37,267 nucleotides of DNA from Microcaldota archaeon (GTDB lineage Archaea > Micrarchaeota > Micrarchaeia > Micrarchaeales > CABMGC01). Below are positions 3-25,155 of the stretch, in pieces. The first letter of the stretch is position 1; every line of letters begins with the position of its first letter. The stretch is taken from the NCBI GenBank assembly GCA_021809925.1, contig JAJZJV010000004.1, positions 1-37,267 of the forward strand, written 5' to 3'. Under the pieces are notes generated by a model that did not search any database, was not told the origin of the DNA, and saw only the letters and a program-made list of their open reading frames with translations. Position numbers and translations under genes: made by a program.

Positions 3-347
3 ACAACGATGGGAGGAGCCCTCCCCAATGCTTTGTCATCTACACTACACTCTTCTGGAGCGCCAAGCAGCATTATACCATATATATCCTCAATCAGCCC
101 CACAGAAGCCCTATTCTCAGCTCTTCTCGGATATAATCCAGTATCATCAATACTTTCAGGTCTTCCAGAAGTAACAGCAAAACTTTCAGGAAGCATAATA
201 AACAAGATAACGAGCCTGACATTCTTCCCTGAGGCAATAGGCAGTGCATACATGCGGGGATTTAGGGAAGTCGTCATGATATCTGCAATACTTTTAATAA
301 TATCAGCAGTTGTATCTTACTTTAAGAAAAGTGGAAGGAGATCCTGA
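3..347 (+). CDS. C-terminal part of a membrane protein, possibly an MFS drug transporter (5' end outside window)
   Basis: Frame is open to the left edge; hydrophobic C-terminal helix ending FKKSGRRS; family guess is weak. Confidence 0.4.
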   Translation, partial: TTMGGALPNALSSTLHSSGAPSSIIPYISSISPTEALFSALLGYNPVSSILSGLPEVTAKLSGSIINKITSLTFFPEAIGSAYMRGFREVVMISAILLIISAVVSYFKKSGRRS

Positions 348-392: not shown

Positions 393-758
393 ATGGCAAA
401 ACGTACGAAAGATTCTGAGATAGCTACAAGGTATGTTTTCCTCTTTTTGGGATTGCTATTGATCCTTGCAACATTTCTAAGCAATTGGTGGGGAGAAGCG
501 GGAATAAGTTCATATCTTATCTATGATGTTGGAGCACTTTTGATATCGATAATAGCTGTGATACTGATAATAATGAATTGGAAGGACCAGAGACTGGATA
601 GCCTTGTCAGGCAGAACGATATCCTGCTGGTTATAGTTGTCATCGGATTGGTAATAGAAGCGATAGGTTTTTACGTCAAGAAGGATACTGCTTATGTCGG
701 CAACAACATCCAGGTAATGTTCGGGCTGATAATGGCAATGGTAAACAGGTACTTATGA
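393..758 (+). CDS. Small multi-TM membrane protein, type A of an A/B paralog array (copy A1)
   Basis: Motifs RYVFxxLxxLxxLATFLxxxWG ... NWxxxxLxxLxRQND ... NRYL shared with ORFs at 1111 and 1816. Confidence 0.85.
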   Translation: MAKRTKDSEIATRYVFLFLGLLLILATFLSNWWGEAGISSYLIYDVGALLISIIAVILIIMNWKDQRLDSLVRQNDILLVIVVIGLVIEAIGFYVKKDTAYVGNNIQVMFGLIMAMVNRYL

Positions 759-767
759 GGGGATTCT

Positions 768-1118
768 TTGAAGAGCATGATTCCAGAGGCGGCACGCCTC
801 AAGATGTGGATGTTTTTCTCTGTTATATTGTTTGTTATAGAGCTTCAGAACATAAATAACAATGTCTTAAATGCGAGTGGGATAATAGACTCGATTGGAG
901 TCGCGATCTTCGTCGCTCTGATAATAATCGCAGTAATGTTTACAAGAAAGAGCAGGAAGAAAGGTACTGTCAGCCTTAGGAACAACCTTATACTCCTCTT
1001 CTCGTTATTGGCATTTCTCTTCGAGATTATAGGAGTGGTGATGAGGACGCAGAACGTCAATTATACGATGGCAGGGATGGCCGCAGTAGTTCTCATGATA
1101 ATAAACAGGTTTGTTTGA
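768..1118 (+). CDS. Small multi-TM membrane protein, type B (copy B1)
   Basis: IPEAARLKMWMFFSVILFVIELQNINNNVLN motif shared with ORFs at 1485 and 2205; TTG start or ATG at 777. Confidence 0.8.
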   Translation: MKSMIPEAARLKMWMFFSVILFVIELQNINNNVLNASGIIDSIGVAIFVALIIIAVMFTRKSRKKGTVSLRNNLILLFSLLAFLFEIIGVVMRTQNVNYTMAGMAAVVLMIINRFV

Positions 1119-1488
1119 TGGTCATATGAAAGGTGTTGGGCTTGAGATTGAGAGAAGGTATGTCTTCTTTTCACTCTCAGTGCTTTTCGTAATAGCTACA
1201 ATCCTCACTGATTTCTGGGGGATAGGTACATCTGATTTTGGCATGCTTGCCGGAGATATCGGGACCCTGCTTATAACCATATTGATAAGTTATTTCATAC
1301 TCATCAACTGGAATGAGAAGAACACAAGGAAACTTTCGCGCCAGAATGATGCAATTGTACTCATGATGGCTATGGCTGTAGCGTTCCAGCTGTACGGCTA
1401 TTACAAGGATCTGAATACGCAATACGCAGTCGGCAATGTCCAGGTGATACTTGGACTTGTCTTAGCAATACTAAACAGGTATGTTTGA
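1111..1488 (+). CDS. Small multi-TM membrane protein, type A (copy A2)
   Basis: RRYVFFSLSVLFVIATILTDFWG ... NWNEKNTRKLSRQNDA ... ILNRYV; overlaps neighbours by a few nt. Confidence 0.85.
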   Translation: MFDGHMKGVGLEIERRYVFFSLSVLFVIATILTDFWGIGTSDFGMLAGDIGTLLITILISYFILINWNEKNTRKLSRQNDAIVLMMAMAVAFQLYGYYKDLNTQYAVGNVQVILGLVLAILNRYV

Positions 1489-1835
1489 TGGGAAGGGGGA
1501 TTTTATCATATAGAGCTGCCAGGAGAGCCATACTCTTCTTCTCGTTCATACTCTTACTGGCACAGGCAGAGGACATTAACGCAGACATACAGAGCCTTGG
1601 GCTTCTTATTGTAGATCTCCTTGTAGCATTATCCCTGCTCTTTGTGGTGGGACTTCTCGCCAAGGCAAAGAAGAAGCCAGAAAGGATCATTATTGATGCG
1701 GTAATAGTATTGCTTGCATTCGGTCTCTCTCTCGAGATTTTTGTGATCTTTGTCATGGATGCGAATATTAATTATCCTGCTGTCGCACTGCTGATGTTCG
1801 CGATGATGATAATAAATGCATTCTTGGGGAGATGA
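1485..1835 (+). CDS. Small multi-TM membrane protein, type B (copy B2)
   Basis: SYRAARRAILFFSFILLLAQAEDINADI aligned with B1/B3. Confidence 0.8.
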   Translation: MMGRGILSYRAARRAILFFSFILLLAQAEDINADIQSLGLLIVDLLVALSLLFVVGLLAKAKKKPERIIIDAVIVLLAFGLSLEIFVIFVMDANINYPAVALLMFAMMIINAFLGR

Positions 1836-2208
1836 ATTGAGTTCTGAAAGGCTTCGGAGGAAAGAGCTTGGCAGGAGATTCATACCTTTCGCCCTCTCGA
1901 TATTTTTCATATGCGCAACTCTTGCGACTGATTTCTGGGGAGAAGGAATTGCAGACCCAATTTCTATCATTGATTATATTGGAACCATGGTTGTGTGTAT
2001 CAGTATAATATATGTGGTTGTAGCCCGATGGAATGATGTCTCGCTGAATAGACTTAAGAGACAAAACAATGTTATCGTTGTACTCCTTCTCGCAAGCTTC
2101 ATGCTACAGCTATACGGATATGTGACAAAGCTCGGCACCACCTACGCAACCAATAACGTGCACATAATTTTCGGCACGGTACTCGCGATATTAAACAGGT
2201 TCGCATGA
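1816..2208 (+). CDS. Small multi-TM membrane protein, type A (copy A3)
   Basis: RRFIPFALSIFFICATLATDFWGEG ... RWNDVSLNRLKRQNN ... ILNRFA. Confidence 0.85.
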   Translation: MHSWGDELSSERLRRKELGRRFIPFALSIFFICATLATDFWGEGIADPISIIDYIGTMVVCISIIYVVVARWNDVSLNRLKRQNNVIVVLLLASFMLQLYGYVTKLGTTYATNNVHIIFGTVLAILNRFA

Positions 2209-2582
2209 TCATGAAGAAGCTTATCCCAGAATATGTCAAGAAACGCGCAATATTATTCTTCTCTGCGATTTTTTTTGTTGTATCGCTGAGCAACATAAAC
2301 TACGACATACTCAACCCATTATATCTTGTGAATGGAATTGGAGGAGCGATCATGTTCTTCTACATAATGCTGATTGTGGCTTTATCAAAGGAAAATGAAG
2401 CTAAGAAAAAGGCAAGGAAGAGAGAGCTCATCATAACGCTTGTGCTGCTTATTGCCCTGGTGTATTATGTCTCTGAGATAGTAGTAAGAACGCTTGTGCT
2501 GCGCATACCTTACGATGCTTCCCAGTCTTATGCGGCTGCAGTCATAATGCTTATGATAATGATAGTTATTGCCAATATATGA
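2205..2582 (+). CDS. Small multi-TM membrane protein, type B (copy B3)
   Basis: LIPEYVKKRAILFFSAIFFVVSLSNINYDILNP aligned with B1/B2. Confidence 0.8.
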   Translation: MIMKKLIPEYVKKRAILFFSAIFFVVSLSNINYDILNPLYLVNGIGGAIMFFYIMLIVALSKENEAKKKARKRELIITLVLLIALVYYVSEIVVRTLVLRIPYDASQSYAAAVIMLMIMIVIANI

Positions 2583-15898: not shown

Positions 15899-18697
15899 AT
15901 GTCTAAAAACAGGGAGAATATAAAAGTAAAGGAATCCTCGAGGATGAGGAGCAACCCTGCCCCTGATAAACCAGATGTTCAGAAGAAAGAATCCGCAAAG
16001 AAGAAGGAGCGGAGAGAATCCAAATTGGTTCCTATATCCTTCTATTGGATCAAGGATTATATTAGGCAATTCCTGAGGAACAAAAATTTTCCGGATGCGA
16101 TGGCTGCGACTTTTGCCGTTGCAAGCGTGGCAATCGCTTTCCCATTATTTCCGCTGCCGGTATTGATAGCATTGCTGGCTATAACGTTTGTAATAACGAT
16201 ATTCAGCCCGCTCTTGGGGCTTATGGCGTTGCTTTTTGAGACATTTCCGATGTTTATATACCAATCCCCGCTCCTGGCATGGATACTTACAATATTCATA
16301 ACAATCTCACTCTTCCTTGGATACAAGCATTATAGGACAATAACGCTGATTTACCTTCTTGCAGTGCTTCCACTTTCCTATCTTGGATACCTCCTTGAAT
16401 TCCCTGCGCTTATTGTTGGAATACTTTTCATAGGGCTTAAGAGGGGAAGCATTGCAGCAATAGCAACAGTGCTTATAGTTGCGATGCTTTCAGGGCTTAC
16501 TGGAATACAGAACACAGGTCCAATAGTGTACAATGCAAGCTCTGCGCACGCTATCCTTGCAAAATCAGAAGTTGCCTCGTTATTTGTTCCAAGCAAAGCA
16601 GTAGCCACTCTCGGAGGAGTCCTGCCTGCTCTCTCAAACTCTATCTCAAACTTCTTCAGCTTCAGCGTCTCATCACACATATTTGATGGATTCGCACTTG
16701 CATTCACTGCACTCTCGTATGATTGGATAATGACAGGCATACAGGCATTGATATGGCTTTTTGTTGTCTTCTCGATAAGCAACTACGTAATAAAGAGCAG
16801 GTCACCGTATAAGGGGGCCGAGTCAAGCATATTGGGAGTCATAATACCTATATCGTATATAGCAATCTCATATATTACCACCACCCCTTACACAATGTAT
16901 ATATTATGGAGCTTTGTGATCACTCCCTTCGCAATATTCTCTCTTGAGATAAATAACATTGACGTTGTAAGGGCCCTTGAAGTCATGAAGCAGGACTTCC
17001 TTGGAAAGTTTGGGGAATCTTTTGAGGAATTTTCCACAGGATCCAGGGAGACACTCGACGACATAGCTAATTACAACGAGACAAAAAAGGAGCTCAAGGA
17101 AGCGATACTCGCACCGATAGAGCATAGGGAGATATCTGGAGCATATAATGTCAAACCCACAAAAGGCATTCTTCTCTTCGGCCCTCCGGGAACAGGTAAG
17201 ACATTGCTGATGAGAGTAATATCAAACGAGATACGCGCCCGCTTCTTTTATATCAAGACATCTTCTATACTATCGCCATATTCTGGAGAGGGCGCACAGG
17301 TTCTTGCAAAAATATTTAACACTGCGAAGAAGAACAAGCCTGCTGTCCTGTTCTTTGATGAGATAGATGCGATAGCAGGCAGTAGGGAGATGCAGGAGAG
17401 CGAGAGCACAAGGCAGCTTCTCTCCACTTTACTGAGTGAGATGGACGGATTCCAGAAGAGCGAGGGAATAGTTGTCGTAGGAGCTACTAATATACCACAT
17501 GTGCTCGACCCGGGAATAATGAGGCCCGGAAGGTTTGATAAGATAATATATATGCCTCTGCCAGACAAGAAAGGCAGGGAAGAGATATTCAGGTATTACC
17601 TGAAGAAGCTGCCGGTAAGCGATAACATAGACTACCAGAGGTTATCTGAGCTTACTGAAAGATTCTCCGGCGCAGATGTCAAGAGCATATGCGATGAATC
17701 TGCAAGACAGGTTGCTGATGTTGCAGTAAGCCAGGTCAAAGTACTTAAGATAACAACAGATGATCTAATAACCAATATCAAAAGGACAAAGCCTTCAACA
17801 TCGCTTAGCCAGATCGAGACTTACAACAATTTCAGGCTTGATTACGAGAGAAGGTCGCATCCGGAAAAGGTTATCAGGGACCAGAATGCCATTATAATAA
17901 ATGATGTCGTCGGGCTTGATGAAGCAAAGAATGCGCTGAAGGAAGCTGTGGAGATGCCGCTACTGCACCAGAACATGATTAAAAAGTATGATATATCCGC
18001 TATTAAAGGCATTCTTCTCTTCGGCCCTCCGGGAACAGGTAAGACAATGCTGATGAAAGCGGTTGCAAATGAAATGGGTGATATTAGCATGATAGTCATC
18101 TCGGGCCCTGATGTACAGATGGCTGGAGCTGAGAATGCGACATTGGCCATAAAGCAGATATTCGAAAGGGCGAAGGAGAATGCACCAAGCATACTCTTTA
18201 TTGATGAAATAGATGCGATAGTTCCTTCGCGAGAAGGAGCCAGCGAGACAGGATTGCAGATGACAAGCCAATTTCTGCAGGAGATGGATGGGATAAAGGA
18301 ATCTAGCGGAATAGTGATTGTTGGAGCAACAAATAGGCCCGATGCTCTTGATTCTGCGCTTCTCAGGGCTGGCAGGTTTGATAAGCTCATCTTTGTACCG
18401 CCACCAAATCAGGATGAGCGGGAAAGGCTGTTCGAGAAGTATCTTAAGAAAGCCCCGATTGCAAAAGTGGAGTTTGCAGAGCTTGCAAAGGAGACAGATG
18501 GATTCACAGGAGCTGATATAGCTAATCTCTGCAGGGAGGTAAAGATGAAAGTTATGGAGAATGCGATAAAAGTCTCTGAAGAAAGAGAGATCATGATGGA
18601 AGATATACTTCTTGCAATGAAAGAGATCAGGCCATCAGCGCCTGAGAGCGAGATCCTGAGGTATAAAGAATTTATATCAAGATACGGGAAGAGATGA
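15899..18697 (+). CDS. Membrane-anchored tandem AAA+ ATPase (CDC48-like AAA modules with N-terminal polytopic TM domain)
   Basis: Two Walker A motifs (GILLFGPPGTGKT) and Walker B motifs (LFFDEIDA, LFIDEIDA), two arginine-finger regions, about 330 aa hydrophobic N-terminal part. Confidence 0.93.
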   Translation: MSKNRENIKVKESSRMRSNPAPDKPDVQKKESAKKKERRESKLVPISFYWIKDYIRQFLRNKNFPDAMAATFAVASVAIAFPLFPLPVLIALLAITFVITIFSPLLGLMALLFETFPMFIYQSPLLAWILTIFITISLFLGYKHYRTITLIYLLAVLPLSYLGYLLEFPALIVGILFIGLKRGSIAAIATVLIVAMLSGLTGIQNTGPIVYNASSAHAILAKSEVASLFVPSKAVATLGGVLPALSNSISNFFSFSVSSHIFDGFALAFTALSYDWIMTGIQALIWLFVVFSISNYVIKSRSPYKGAESSILGVIIPISYIAISYITTTPYTMYILWSFVITPFAIFSLEINNIDVVRALEVMKQDFLGKFGESFEEFSTGSRETLDDIANYNETKKELKEAILAPIEHREISGAYNVKPTKGILLFGPPGTGKTLLMRVISNEIRARFFYIKTSSILSPYSGEGAQVLAKIFNTAKKNKPAVLFFDEIDAIAGSREMQESESTRQLLSTLLSEMDGFQKSEGIVVVGATNIPHVLDPGIMRPGRFDKIIYMPLPDKKGREEIFRYYLKKLPVSDNIDYQRLSELTERFSGADVKSICDESARQVADVAVSQVKVLKITTDDLITNIKRTKPSTSLSQIETYNNFRLDYERRSHPEKVIRDQNAIIINDVVGLDEAKNALKEAVEMPLLHQNMIKKYDISAIKGILLFGPPGTGKTMLMKAVANEMGDISMIVISGPDVQMAGAENATLAIKQIFERAKENAPSILFIDEIDAIVPSREGASETGLQMTSQFLQEMDGIKESSGIVIVGATNRPDALDSALLRAGRFDKLIFVPPPNQDERERLFEKYLKKAPIAKVEFAELAKETDGFTGADIANLCREVKMKVMENAIKVSEEREIMMEDILLAMKEIRPSAPESEILRYKEFISRYGKR

Positions 18698-22776: not shown

Positions 22777-23235
22777 TTGAGTGGTCTGATGTATTTCATA
22801 GTAAGAGTGACTTCAAGCCAAGAGAAGATTACTGCAGATATTCTAGAGAATAAGATAATCAAGCAGGGTCTTCCGATATACGCTATAATACTCCCGCATG
22901 GCATGAGAGGTTACTTGATAATAGAAGCTGAAAATGAGCTTACATGCAGGGAACTAATAATGAACGAGCCGCATGTCAAGGGAATGCTTGTATCGCCTCT
23001 TGGAGAGAGCGAGCTTGACAAGATGCTAGTGGCAAAGCAGACAGTCCAGAAGGTAGATGTCAACGACATAGTAGAGCTTCTCTCGGTTCCTTTCAAAGGA
23101 TATAAGGCAAGAGTAATAAAAGTTGACTCTGCAAAGGATGAAATTACTGTAGAGCTGATGGATGTAGCGGTACCAATACCTGTCACAATAAAAGCTAATA
23201 CTGCAAGAATTATAGAAAAAGCAGAATCGGTGTGA
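22777..23235 (+). CDS. spt5: Transcription elongation factor Spt5 (NusG N-terminal + KOW)
   Basis: FIVRVTSSQEKITADIL, HGMRGYLIIEAE, KGYKARVIKVDSAKDEITVELMD; immediately upstream of L11. Confidence 0.93.
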   Translation: MSGLMYFIVRVTSSQEKITADILENKIIKQGLPIYAIILPHGMRGYLIIEAENELTCRELIMNEPHVKGMLVSPLGESELDKMLVAKQTVQKVDVNDIVELLSVPFKGYKARVIKVDSAKDEITVELMDVAVPIPVTIKANTARIIEKAESV

Positions 23236-23708
23236 ATATGAGCGAAGTAATAATCAATGGTTTGATTGAGGGAGGGAAGGCGACAAACGGGCCCCCTTTT
23301 GGACCTGCTCTGGGGCCTCTCGGGATAAATATCAATAACGTAGTCAGCGAGATCAACTCAAAGACTGCAGCTTTTGCAGGAATACGCGTTCCGGTCAAGG
23401 TGATTGTAGAGACCTCAAACAAGAGCTTTGTTGTTGAGGTTGGATCCCCACAGACAAGCGCCCTAATAATGAGGGAGCTTGGCATACAGAAGGGAGCAAA
23501 AACGAAAGAGGAGGTTCCTGGAGACATAACAATGGAGCAGGTAACAAAGATTGCGAAATCTAAGGAAGCATCCCTCTATGGAGAATCACTTAAGGATAGA
23601 GTAACTCAGGTCCTTGGAACATGCGTCAGCATGAATATAACATGCGAAGGAGGAAGCGCAAAGGAAGCGATAAAGAAAGTTAAGAAGGGAGAGATTGAAG
23701 TTAAGTAG
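23232..23708 (+). CDS. rpl11: Ribosomal protein L11
   Basis: LIEGGKATNGPPFGPALGPLGININNVVSEINSKT. Confidence 0.97.
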   Translation: MNMSEVIINGLIEGGKATNGPPFGPALGPLGININNVVSEINSKTAAFAGIRVPVKVIVETSNKSFVVEVGSPQTSALIMRELGIQKGAKTKEEVPGDITMEQVTKIAKSKEASLYGESLKDRVTQVLGTCVSMNITCEGGSAKEAIKKVKKGEIEVK

Positions 23709-23865: not shown

Positions 23866-23881
23866 AACTCCTTAATGGGAG

Positions 23882-23918
23882 ATAATGGGACTGGAATAAA
23901 TTCGTTTGGAAAGATTGG
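23882..23918 (+). repeat. Imperfect direct repeat R1 flanking A-B fusion gene
   Basis: ATAATGGGACTGGAATAAATTCGTTTGGAAAGATTGG, 32/37 identical to R2. Confidence 0.75.
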
Positions 23919-23962: not shown

Positions 23963-24646
23963 TTGGCTTTTTATTACTTGCTTTCCTCAGTTAAGAGGAT
24001 GGACAAAAGAACAGAGCTTTATATTGCGAAAAGATACGTTGCATTTGTTTTTGCGATGTTGGCAGTGTTAGGTTATCCTGCGACAATGTTTTTTGAGGTA
24101 AAACAAAGAAACCTTCTTCTTTTGGAAGTAATAATATTTATCATCGGAATAGGCATAGTGGCGTACATAGCTAGGAGTAGGAAGAAAAACAGTAGTAGGG
24201 AATTAAGGAAGCAGATCCGAACCATTGCCTTTCTGTTAGCAATAGACACTGCGCTTCAGTTCTTTTGCGTTGTTCTTACGATACACCTTGCCGTCTTTGT
24301 AGACATGATCTACATAACTGTAGGATTTATGGCAGTGATATTAAACTTAGTGAGCGGAGAGGCGGTGAATTCATTCATGAGCAGGCATTTGCCCGACTCT
24401 GCCAGAAAAAGAGCATGGACTTACATGATTATACTGCTTTTATTATCGAATGTGGCTGCAGTTAATAGGGATATAAGTAATCCAAATGTGATAATCCCGA
24501 TAGATGAAATTATCATAATACTTGTATCATTTGTTCTACTCTGGCTTGTAAGGTTCGTATCATTATCAACGAAGAAAAGGTTGGTTAAAAGAGACAGATG
24601 GATTGCCACGCTTGTATTGTTTGGGCTGTATTCTTGTTTGATATGA
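23963..24646 (+). CDS. Membrane protein, single-ORF fusion of a type A and a type B module
   Basis: First half AKRYVAFVFAMLAVLGYPATMFFE... aligns to type A; second half HLPDSARKRAWTYMIILLLLSNVAAVNRDISNPNVIIPIDEI aligns to type B. Confidence 0.75.
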   Translation: MAFYYLLSSVKRMDKRTELYIAKRYVAFVFAMLAVLGYPATMFFEVKQRNLLLLEVIIFIIGIGIVAYIARSRKKNSSRELRKQIRTIAFLLAIDTALQFFCVVLTIHLAVFVDMIYITVGFMAVILNLVSGEAVNSFMSRHLPDSARKRAWTYMIILLLLSNVAAVNRDISNPNVIIPIDEIIIILVSFVLLWLVRFVSLSTKKRLVKRDRWIATLVLFGLYSCLI

Positions 24647-24649
24647 TAA

Positions 24650-24686
24650 ATAATGGAGCTGGAATAAATTAGTTTGGAGACATTGG
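24650..24686 (+). repeat. Imperfect direct repeat R2 flanking A-B fusion gene
   Basis: ATAATGGAGCTGGAATAAATTAGTTTGGAGACATTGG. Confidence 0.75.
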
Positions 24687-24810
24687 AGGCCTCATTACCC
24701 TGGGATTGATGCTTCTAACTGTTTTTATGTAAATCGCAATTTTGAGGTACTGCTGTAACAATATATAAATACCTTTACTCAAAAGCTTAAATTGGGTAGA
24801 GAGGGAGTAT

Positions 24811-25155
24811 ATGGCTGCTAATCCAAAACAAAAGAAGGGCATTGCACTTCATCCTGATTTTAAGATAGAGAATATAGTAGCCAGTGCTGACCTTGGAGTT
24901 GATCTTGACCTTTATGGAATAGCTAAGGTTTCAACAGATGTTGATTATGAGCCTGAGCAATTCCCTGGAGCGATATGCAAGATCCATGAGCCTAAGACAG
25001 CTTTGCTGCTCTTTAAGAATGGCAAGATAATTTGCACAGGGGCAAAGACAGAAGAGGATATAAGAAGGGCAATAGATCAGGTAATAAAGATAGTGAAGAA
25101 CTTTATCCTGATGCAAAATCAGCCGAAGCCAAAAAAAGCAAGCAGATCGAAGTAA
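24811..25155 (+). CDS. tbp: TATA-box-binding protein, single-repeat form (114 aa)
   Basis: FKIENIVASADLGVDLDL...YEPEQFPGAICKIHEPKTALLLFKNGKIICTGAKTEEDIRRAIDQV is one complete TBP repeat; no second repeat. Confidence 0.9.
   Translation: MAANPKQKKGIALHPDFKIENIVASADLGVDLDLYGIAKVSTDVDYEPEQFPGAICKIHEPKTALLLFKNGKIICTGAKTEEDIRRAIDQVIKIVKNFILMQNQPKPKKASRSK

Follow-up and report, generated by a model that had tools for sequence, protein, structure and literature searches.

The window analysed here is the whole 37,267-nt stretch of contig JAJZJV010000004.1, from the genome of a Microcaldota archaeon, and it was compared with the genome of a sister of the same genus (hereafter the sister genome; the two are G000 and G001 in our sample). 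Between the genes for ribosomal protein L11 and TBP, where the initial annotation had placed it, lies an open reading frame (F) that joins homologues of two small membrane proteins, type A and type B, in one chain. The features of this interval are as follows.

23232..23708, + strand: ribosomal protein L11, left neighbour of F
23875..23918, + strand: imperfect 44-bp direct repeat, left-hand copy (82% to its right-hand counterpart)
23999..24646, + strand: F, the A-B fusion ORF, 215 aa from ATG 23999; A half at about residues 1-121, B half at about 125-215 and truncated
24365..24379, + strand: junction of F, with GGAG, then GTG 24365 and ATG 24377, in the fused frame
24610..24732, + strand: fourth helix, lost from the end of the B half and readable in another frame only (AVFLFDMINNGAGIN*FGDIGGLITLGLMLLTVFM); stop at 24730-24732
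24643..24686, + strand: right copy of the 44-bp repeat, within the former B tail
24811..25155, + strand: single-repeat TBP, right neighbour of F

The right neighbour encodes one TBP repeat only (114 aa), and a second single-repeat TBP is found in the same genome at C4:66980-67225. All 40 genomes of the family that were sampled gave TBP matches. These lie in open frames of 94-168 aa, apparently with a single repeat, and many of the genomes carry two genes of this kind. A half-size TBP would have to dimerise; literature searches on half-size TBP found no discussion of it.

The reading frame of F can be followed from TTG 23963, which gives the 227 aa of the initial annotation. That frame is present, but similarity to relatives begins at ATG 23999, and the TTG is therefore probably not the start, 215 aa being the likelier length. 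Profile HMMs were built from 17 A-type and 9 B-type proteins, with F left out of both. The A half of F scored 45.2 bits to the A-profile versus 4.4 to the B-profile (best of 1000 shuffles, 10.4), and the B half 45.7 bits to the B-profile versus 10.7 to the A-profile (highest of 1000 shuffles, 12.7); no membrane protein of the window unrelated to A and B exceeded 2.9 bits. These type-specific scores, far above those of the shuffles, bear out the earlier description of a type A-like first half and a type B-like second half. The profile–profile comparison that had been proposed as a check was run with an alignment of F and the one other fusion described below, and hhalign matched it to the A alignment over residues 1-119 (99.4%) and to the B alignment over residues 129-245 (98.8%). 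The arrangement of an A half followed by a B half, in the order of every tandem pair, is confirmed. Membrane proteins are known to give inflated similarity, and a resemblance due merely to the hydrophobic composition of membrane helices has to be considered; since 1000 composition-matched shuffles and unrelated membrane proteins scored several-fold lower, and since the halves are each specific for their type, we regard that explanation as exceedingly improbable.

Separately encoded homologues of both fusion halves exist elsewhere in the genome, the configuration on which the Rosetta-stone criterion relies. Three A-B pairs form an array at the left end of the window.

393..758, + strand: A1, type A four-helix membrane protein
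768..1118, + strand: B1, type B
1126..1488, + strand: A2, type A; its ORF opens at TTG 1111
1485..1835, + strand: B2, type B; 4-nt overlap with A2
1816..2208, + strand: A3, type A
2205..2582, + strand: B3, type B; 4-nt overlap with A3

Besides this array (393-2582) and F, the genome holds two A-B pairs on contig C27 and one on C42, and two more A-like genes on contig C2. Every B copy lies directly downstream of an A (7/7), none being found without an adjacent A, and three pairs (A2/B2, A3/B3 and A4/B4) overlap by 4 nt. Orthologous array A and B genes of the two genomes gave dN/dS values of 0.05-0.67, with few substitutions each. A match on contig C11 was judged a chance membrane-helix similarity. 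An MFS-like transporter, recognised by eye, stands upstream of the array genes in the window (9-347) and also in another genus (G028, L052:2804-4453), and the transporter and array genes may possibly form a conserved neighbourhood. Elsewhere in the window, a 932-aa protein (15899-18697) combines an N-terminal membrane region with two AAA-type ATPase modules, again recognised by eye.

Of the 79 genomes of the family that were searched, only those of this genus gave strong B-type matches. In the phylum, 295 genomes were sampled and 21 (~7%, both genomes of this genus counted in) had A-like genes, mostly one copy each outside this genus. These single-copy relatives are homologous to A and B by profile, are alike in length and helices, and carry the motif DFGDDIPVLIGL..NRF, whereas the acidic motif is mostly lost in A and B. 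They are also mostly one unpaired gene per genome, with no fusion seen, in contrast to the paired A and B. Their gene neighbourhoods, compared by eye, looked inconsistent and offered no clue to function.

The A and B profiles align with each other over their full length (hhalign 96.6%, E 6e-10), and the two proteins are paralogues. Hydropathy and charge indicate that each has four helices and that its N-terminus, middle loop and C-terminus face the positive, inner side; a simple hydropathy scan missed helix 4 of A1 and A3, and the A3 model displays it. Counts of K+R alternate along A, B and an intact fusion from the sister genome in such a way that N-terminus, middle loop, linker and C-terminus are all inside. 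Because A and B are paralogous, have four helices and share one orientation, the fusion joins parallel tandem paralogues and not unrelated or inverted partners.

The intact fusion (FG; JAMCSO010000018.1, Candidatus Marsarchaeota archaeon isolate FK_Sedi_A_Bin.208) is a full-length A-B protein of 245 aa, with the complete four-helix B unit and conserved C-terminus that F lacks. The junctions of FG and F align ungapped. The FG linker has no in-frame ATG, GTG or TTG, so that its B half is probably produced solely as part of the fusion, whereas the junction of F resembles the B start of a C27 pair (GTGAATTCA-ATG), and the B half may therefore be initiated at a start of its own there. Identity between F and FG at the three codon positions is 0.45/0.59/0.29, a pattern typical of a protein-coding history that shows past selection at the protein level. 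The FG orthologue in the window's genome (C42, L009:2412-3161) is broken: relative to FG, 13 extra nt interrupt helix 2 of A and 1 nt is missing at the junction. Divergently from FG, a gene at L057:2768-7000 encodes a very large protein that looks secreted and contains a lysozyme-like stretch, noted by eye.

In the trees, the A clade was recovered with support of 89/82 and the B clade with 99/94. The B halves of F and FG cluster (98/82), the A halves cluster weakly (86/56, and 46/0 in the A-only tree), and the topology ((4,5),(F,FG)) repeats on the A and B sides. The A half of F sits on a long branch, the longest among the A proteins; with this branch and the weak grouping of the A halves, a single fusion event behind F and FG is not proven.

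F stops ~30 residues short of the end of the intact fusion. The missing end can be recognised at 24610-24732, which matched positions 82-122 of the B-profile with a modest 9.1 bits, ending exactly at the profile end, compared with 6.1 for the best of 2690 shuffled frames. Between the F frame and this tail lie a frameshift near 24628 and an in-frame TAG (24670-24672), and F joined over the lesions would comprise ~244 residues, against 245 in the intact fusion. This copy is probably decaying. The window's genome is a fragmented draft assembly (48 contigs), and its lesions could partly be assembly errors. The first 210 codons of F are lesion-free and normal in codon-position composition, as would be expected of a functional shortened fusion in which a B half of three helices or fewer works, or in which a programmed frameshift adds helix 4. 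The tail in the other frame also contains a TAG, though, the A half is the most divergent in branch length among the A proteins, and the gene is dispensable in the sister genome; we think a functional short form quite unlikely.

The corresponding L11-TBP interval of the sister genome is without F, and the flanking DNA is 97-98.5% identical. The break point between the two genomes falls within the 44-bp repeat, which is present in two copies around F and as one left-right chimaera in the sister, where the end of the B tail is retained with its stop. Two copies in one genome and a chimaeric single copy in the other fit integration as well as excision, and F could have entered this genome there, through recombination with an excised array unit for instance, without ever having been in the sister genome. 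A B-tail end with its stop is most easily left by a deletion, however, and we hold an insertion to be unlikely; loss of F by deletion in the sister genome would be the simplest account. The left repeat copy might be a second B remnant, which is a guess, and it gave no significant score to the B-profile.

These observations bear on how much the fusion says about partnership. The initial annotation considered that it strongly implies an A-B interaction, and for F this wording is too strong: the partners are tandem paralogues, helix 4 of the B half is gone, and F is missing from the sister genome. The partnership as such is backed by the full-length sister fusion and the constant pairing of B after A, which together are better evidence than F, and we infer an A-B interface from this pairing and fusion. 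As tandem paralogues with overlaps or tiny gaps, A and B can easily be fused by loss of a stop codon, one small indel being sufficient, and fusion of tandem paralogues is in itself a well-known type of event. The fusion could accordingly be an accident between neighbours that act separately, saying nothing of interaction, and both fusion copies of the window's genome are indeed broken. Against such an accident, the sister genome retains an intact 245-aa fusion whose linker has no start, and B was never found apart from an adjacent A; we judge it rather unlikely. A heterodimer of A and B is most likely the best reading of these data. The suggested structural check was performed on the intact sister fusion, whose model has eight helices and is weak (pLDDT 60, pTM 0.53), with a B half at pLDDT ~50, too poor to display the interface and not usable for it.

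We consider it likely that F belongs to a genus-specific family of A-B modules, in which A and B are heterodimer partners, that it is degenerating, and that it went through fusion, then lesions, with deletion in the sister. A and B are paralogous four-helix subunits of the same orientation, encoded by adjacent and often overlapping genes, and most likely assemble side by side. Loss of the A stop codon in one sub-lineage would have turned a pair into one eight-helix chain whose linker is short and cytosolic, and the sister genome still has this chain intact. Between L11 and TBP, a frameshift and a nonsense mutation later cost F the last B helix, and in the sister genome nearly all of F would have been deleted, probably when the flanking repeats recombined. 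Of these elements, the data show the homology, the pairing, the fusion, the lesions and the empty site, and the heterodimer, its side-by-side packing and the direction of the indel are inferred. If this reading is true, it offers a direct handle on an unnamed family of small membrane proteins of tiny uncultured archaea, makes A and B testable as a pair, and provides in the intact 245-aa sister fusion a natural construct for structure work. It also brings gene birth and loss, by duplication, fusion, frameshift and repeat-associated indel, into view within one genus with a genome of less than 1 Mb.

Scans of Pfam, NCBIfam and PHROG and a sequence-profile search of the PDB gave nothing over cut-off for A and B, and literature searches on the family found nothing. 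The A monomer was modelled with good confidence as a four-helix bundle (pLDDT 84.5, pTM 0.77). No match at E <=0.001 came from PDB fold searches with the fusion or the A monomer, or from a search of viral models with the A monomer. No relatives were found in the viral contigs and phages searched, and a viral origin of A and B is unsupported. As to the role of the family, a cell-membrane complex of a structural or transport-related kind is the likeliest. More speculatively, and to be taken as a tentative proposal, the A-B modules may constitute a new class of four-helix membrane complexes, heterodimeric and parallel, that is unique to one archaeal genus, rapidly duplicated, fused and deleted and perhaps contacting a host archaeon or the cell envelope, with the eight-helix fusion as their single-chain form.

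Two known systems invite comparison. The SMR profile was absent among the Pfam matches listed (E limits 1 and 0.05), and the SemiSWEET/SWEET profile reached 15.2 bits, below its cut-off of 100. Paired small multidrug resistance (SMR) proteins such as EbrAB are encoded by tandem genes for two paralogous four-helix subunits of ~110-120 aa, which are thought to act as a heterodimer and are held to have opposite membrane orientation. A and B are like these pairs in their tandem genes and paralogous four-helix subunits; they differ in orientation, which is the same throughout, with one K+R bias shared by A, by B and by either half of the intact fusion. In the passage from SemiSWEET to SWEET, a small membrane subunit was duplicated and the copies were joined in a single chain whose halves are parallel, built of three-helix units and a linker helix. 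The A-B fusion resembles this case as a duplicated and fused small membrane subunit with parallel halves, and differs from it in that its units have four helices.
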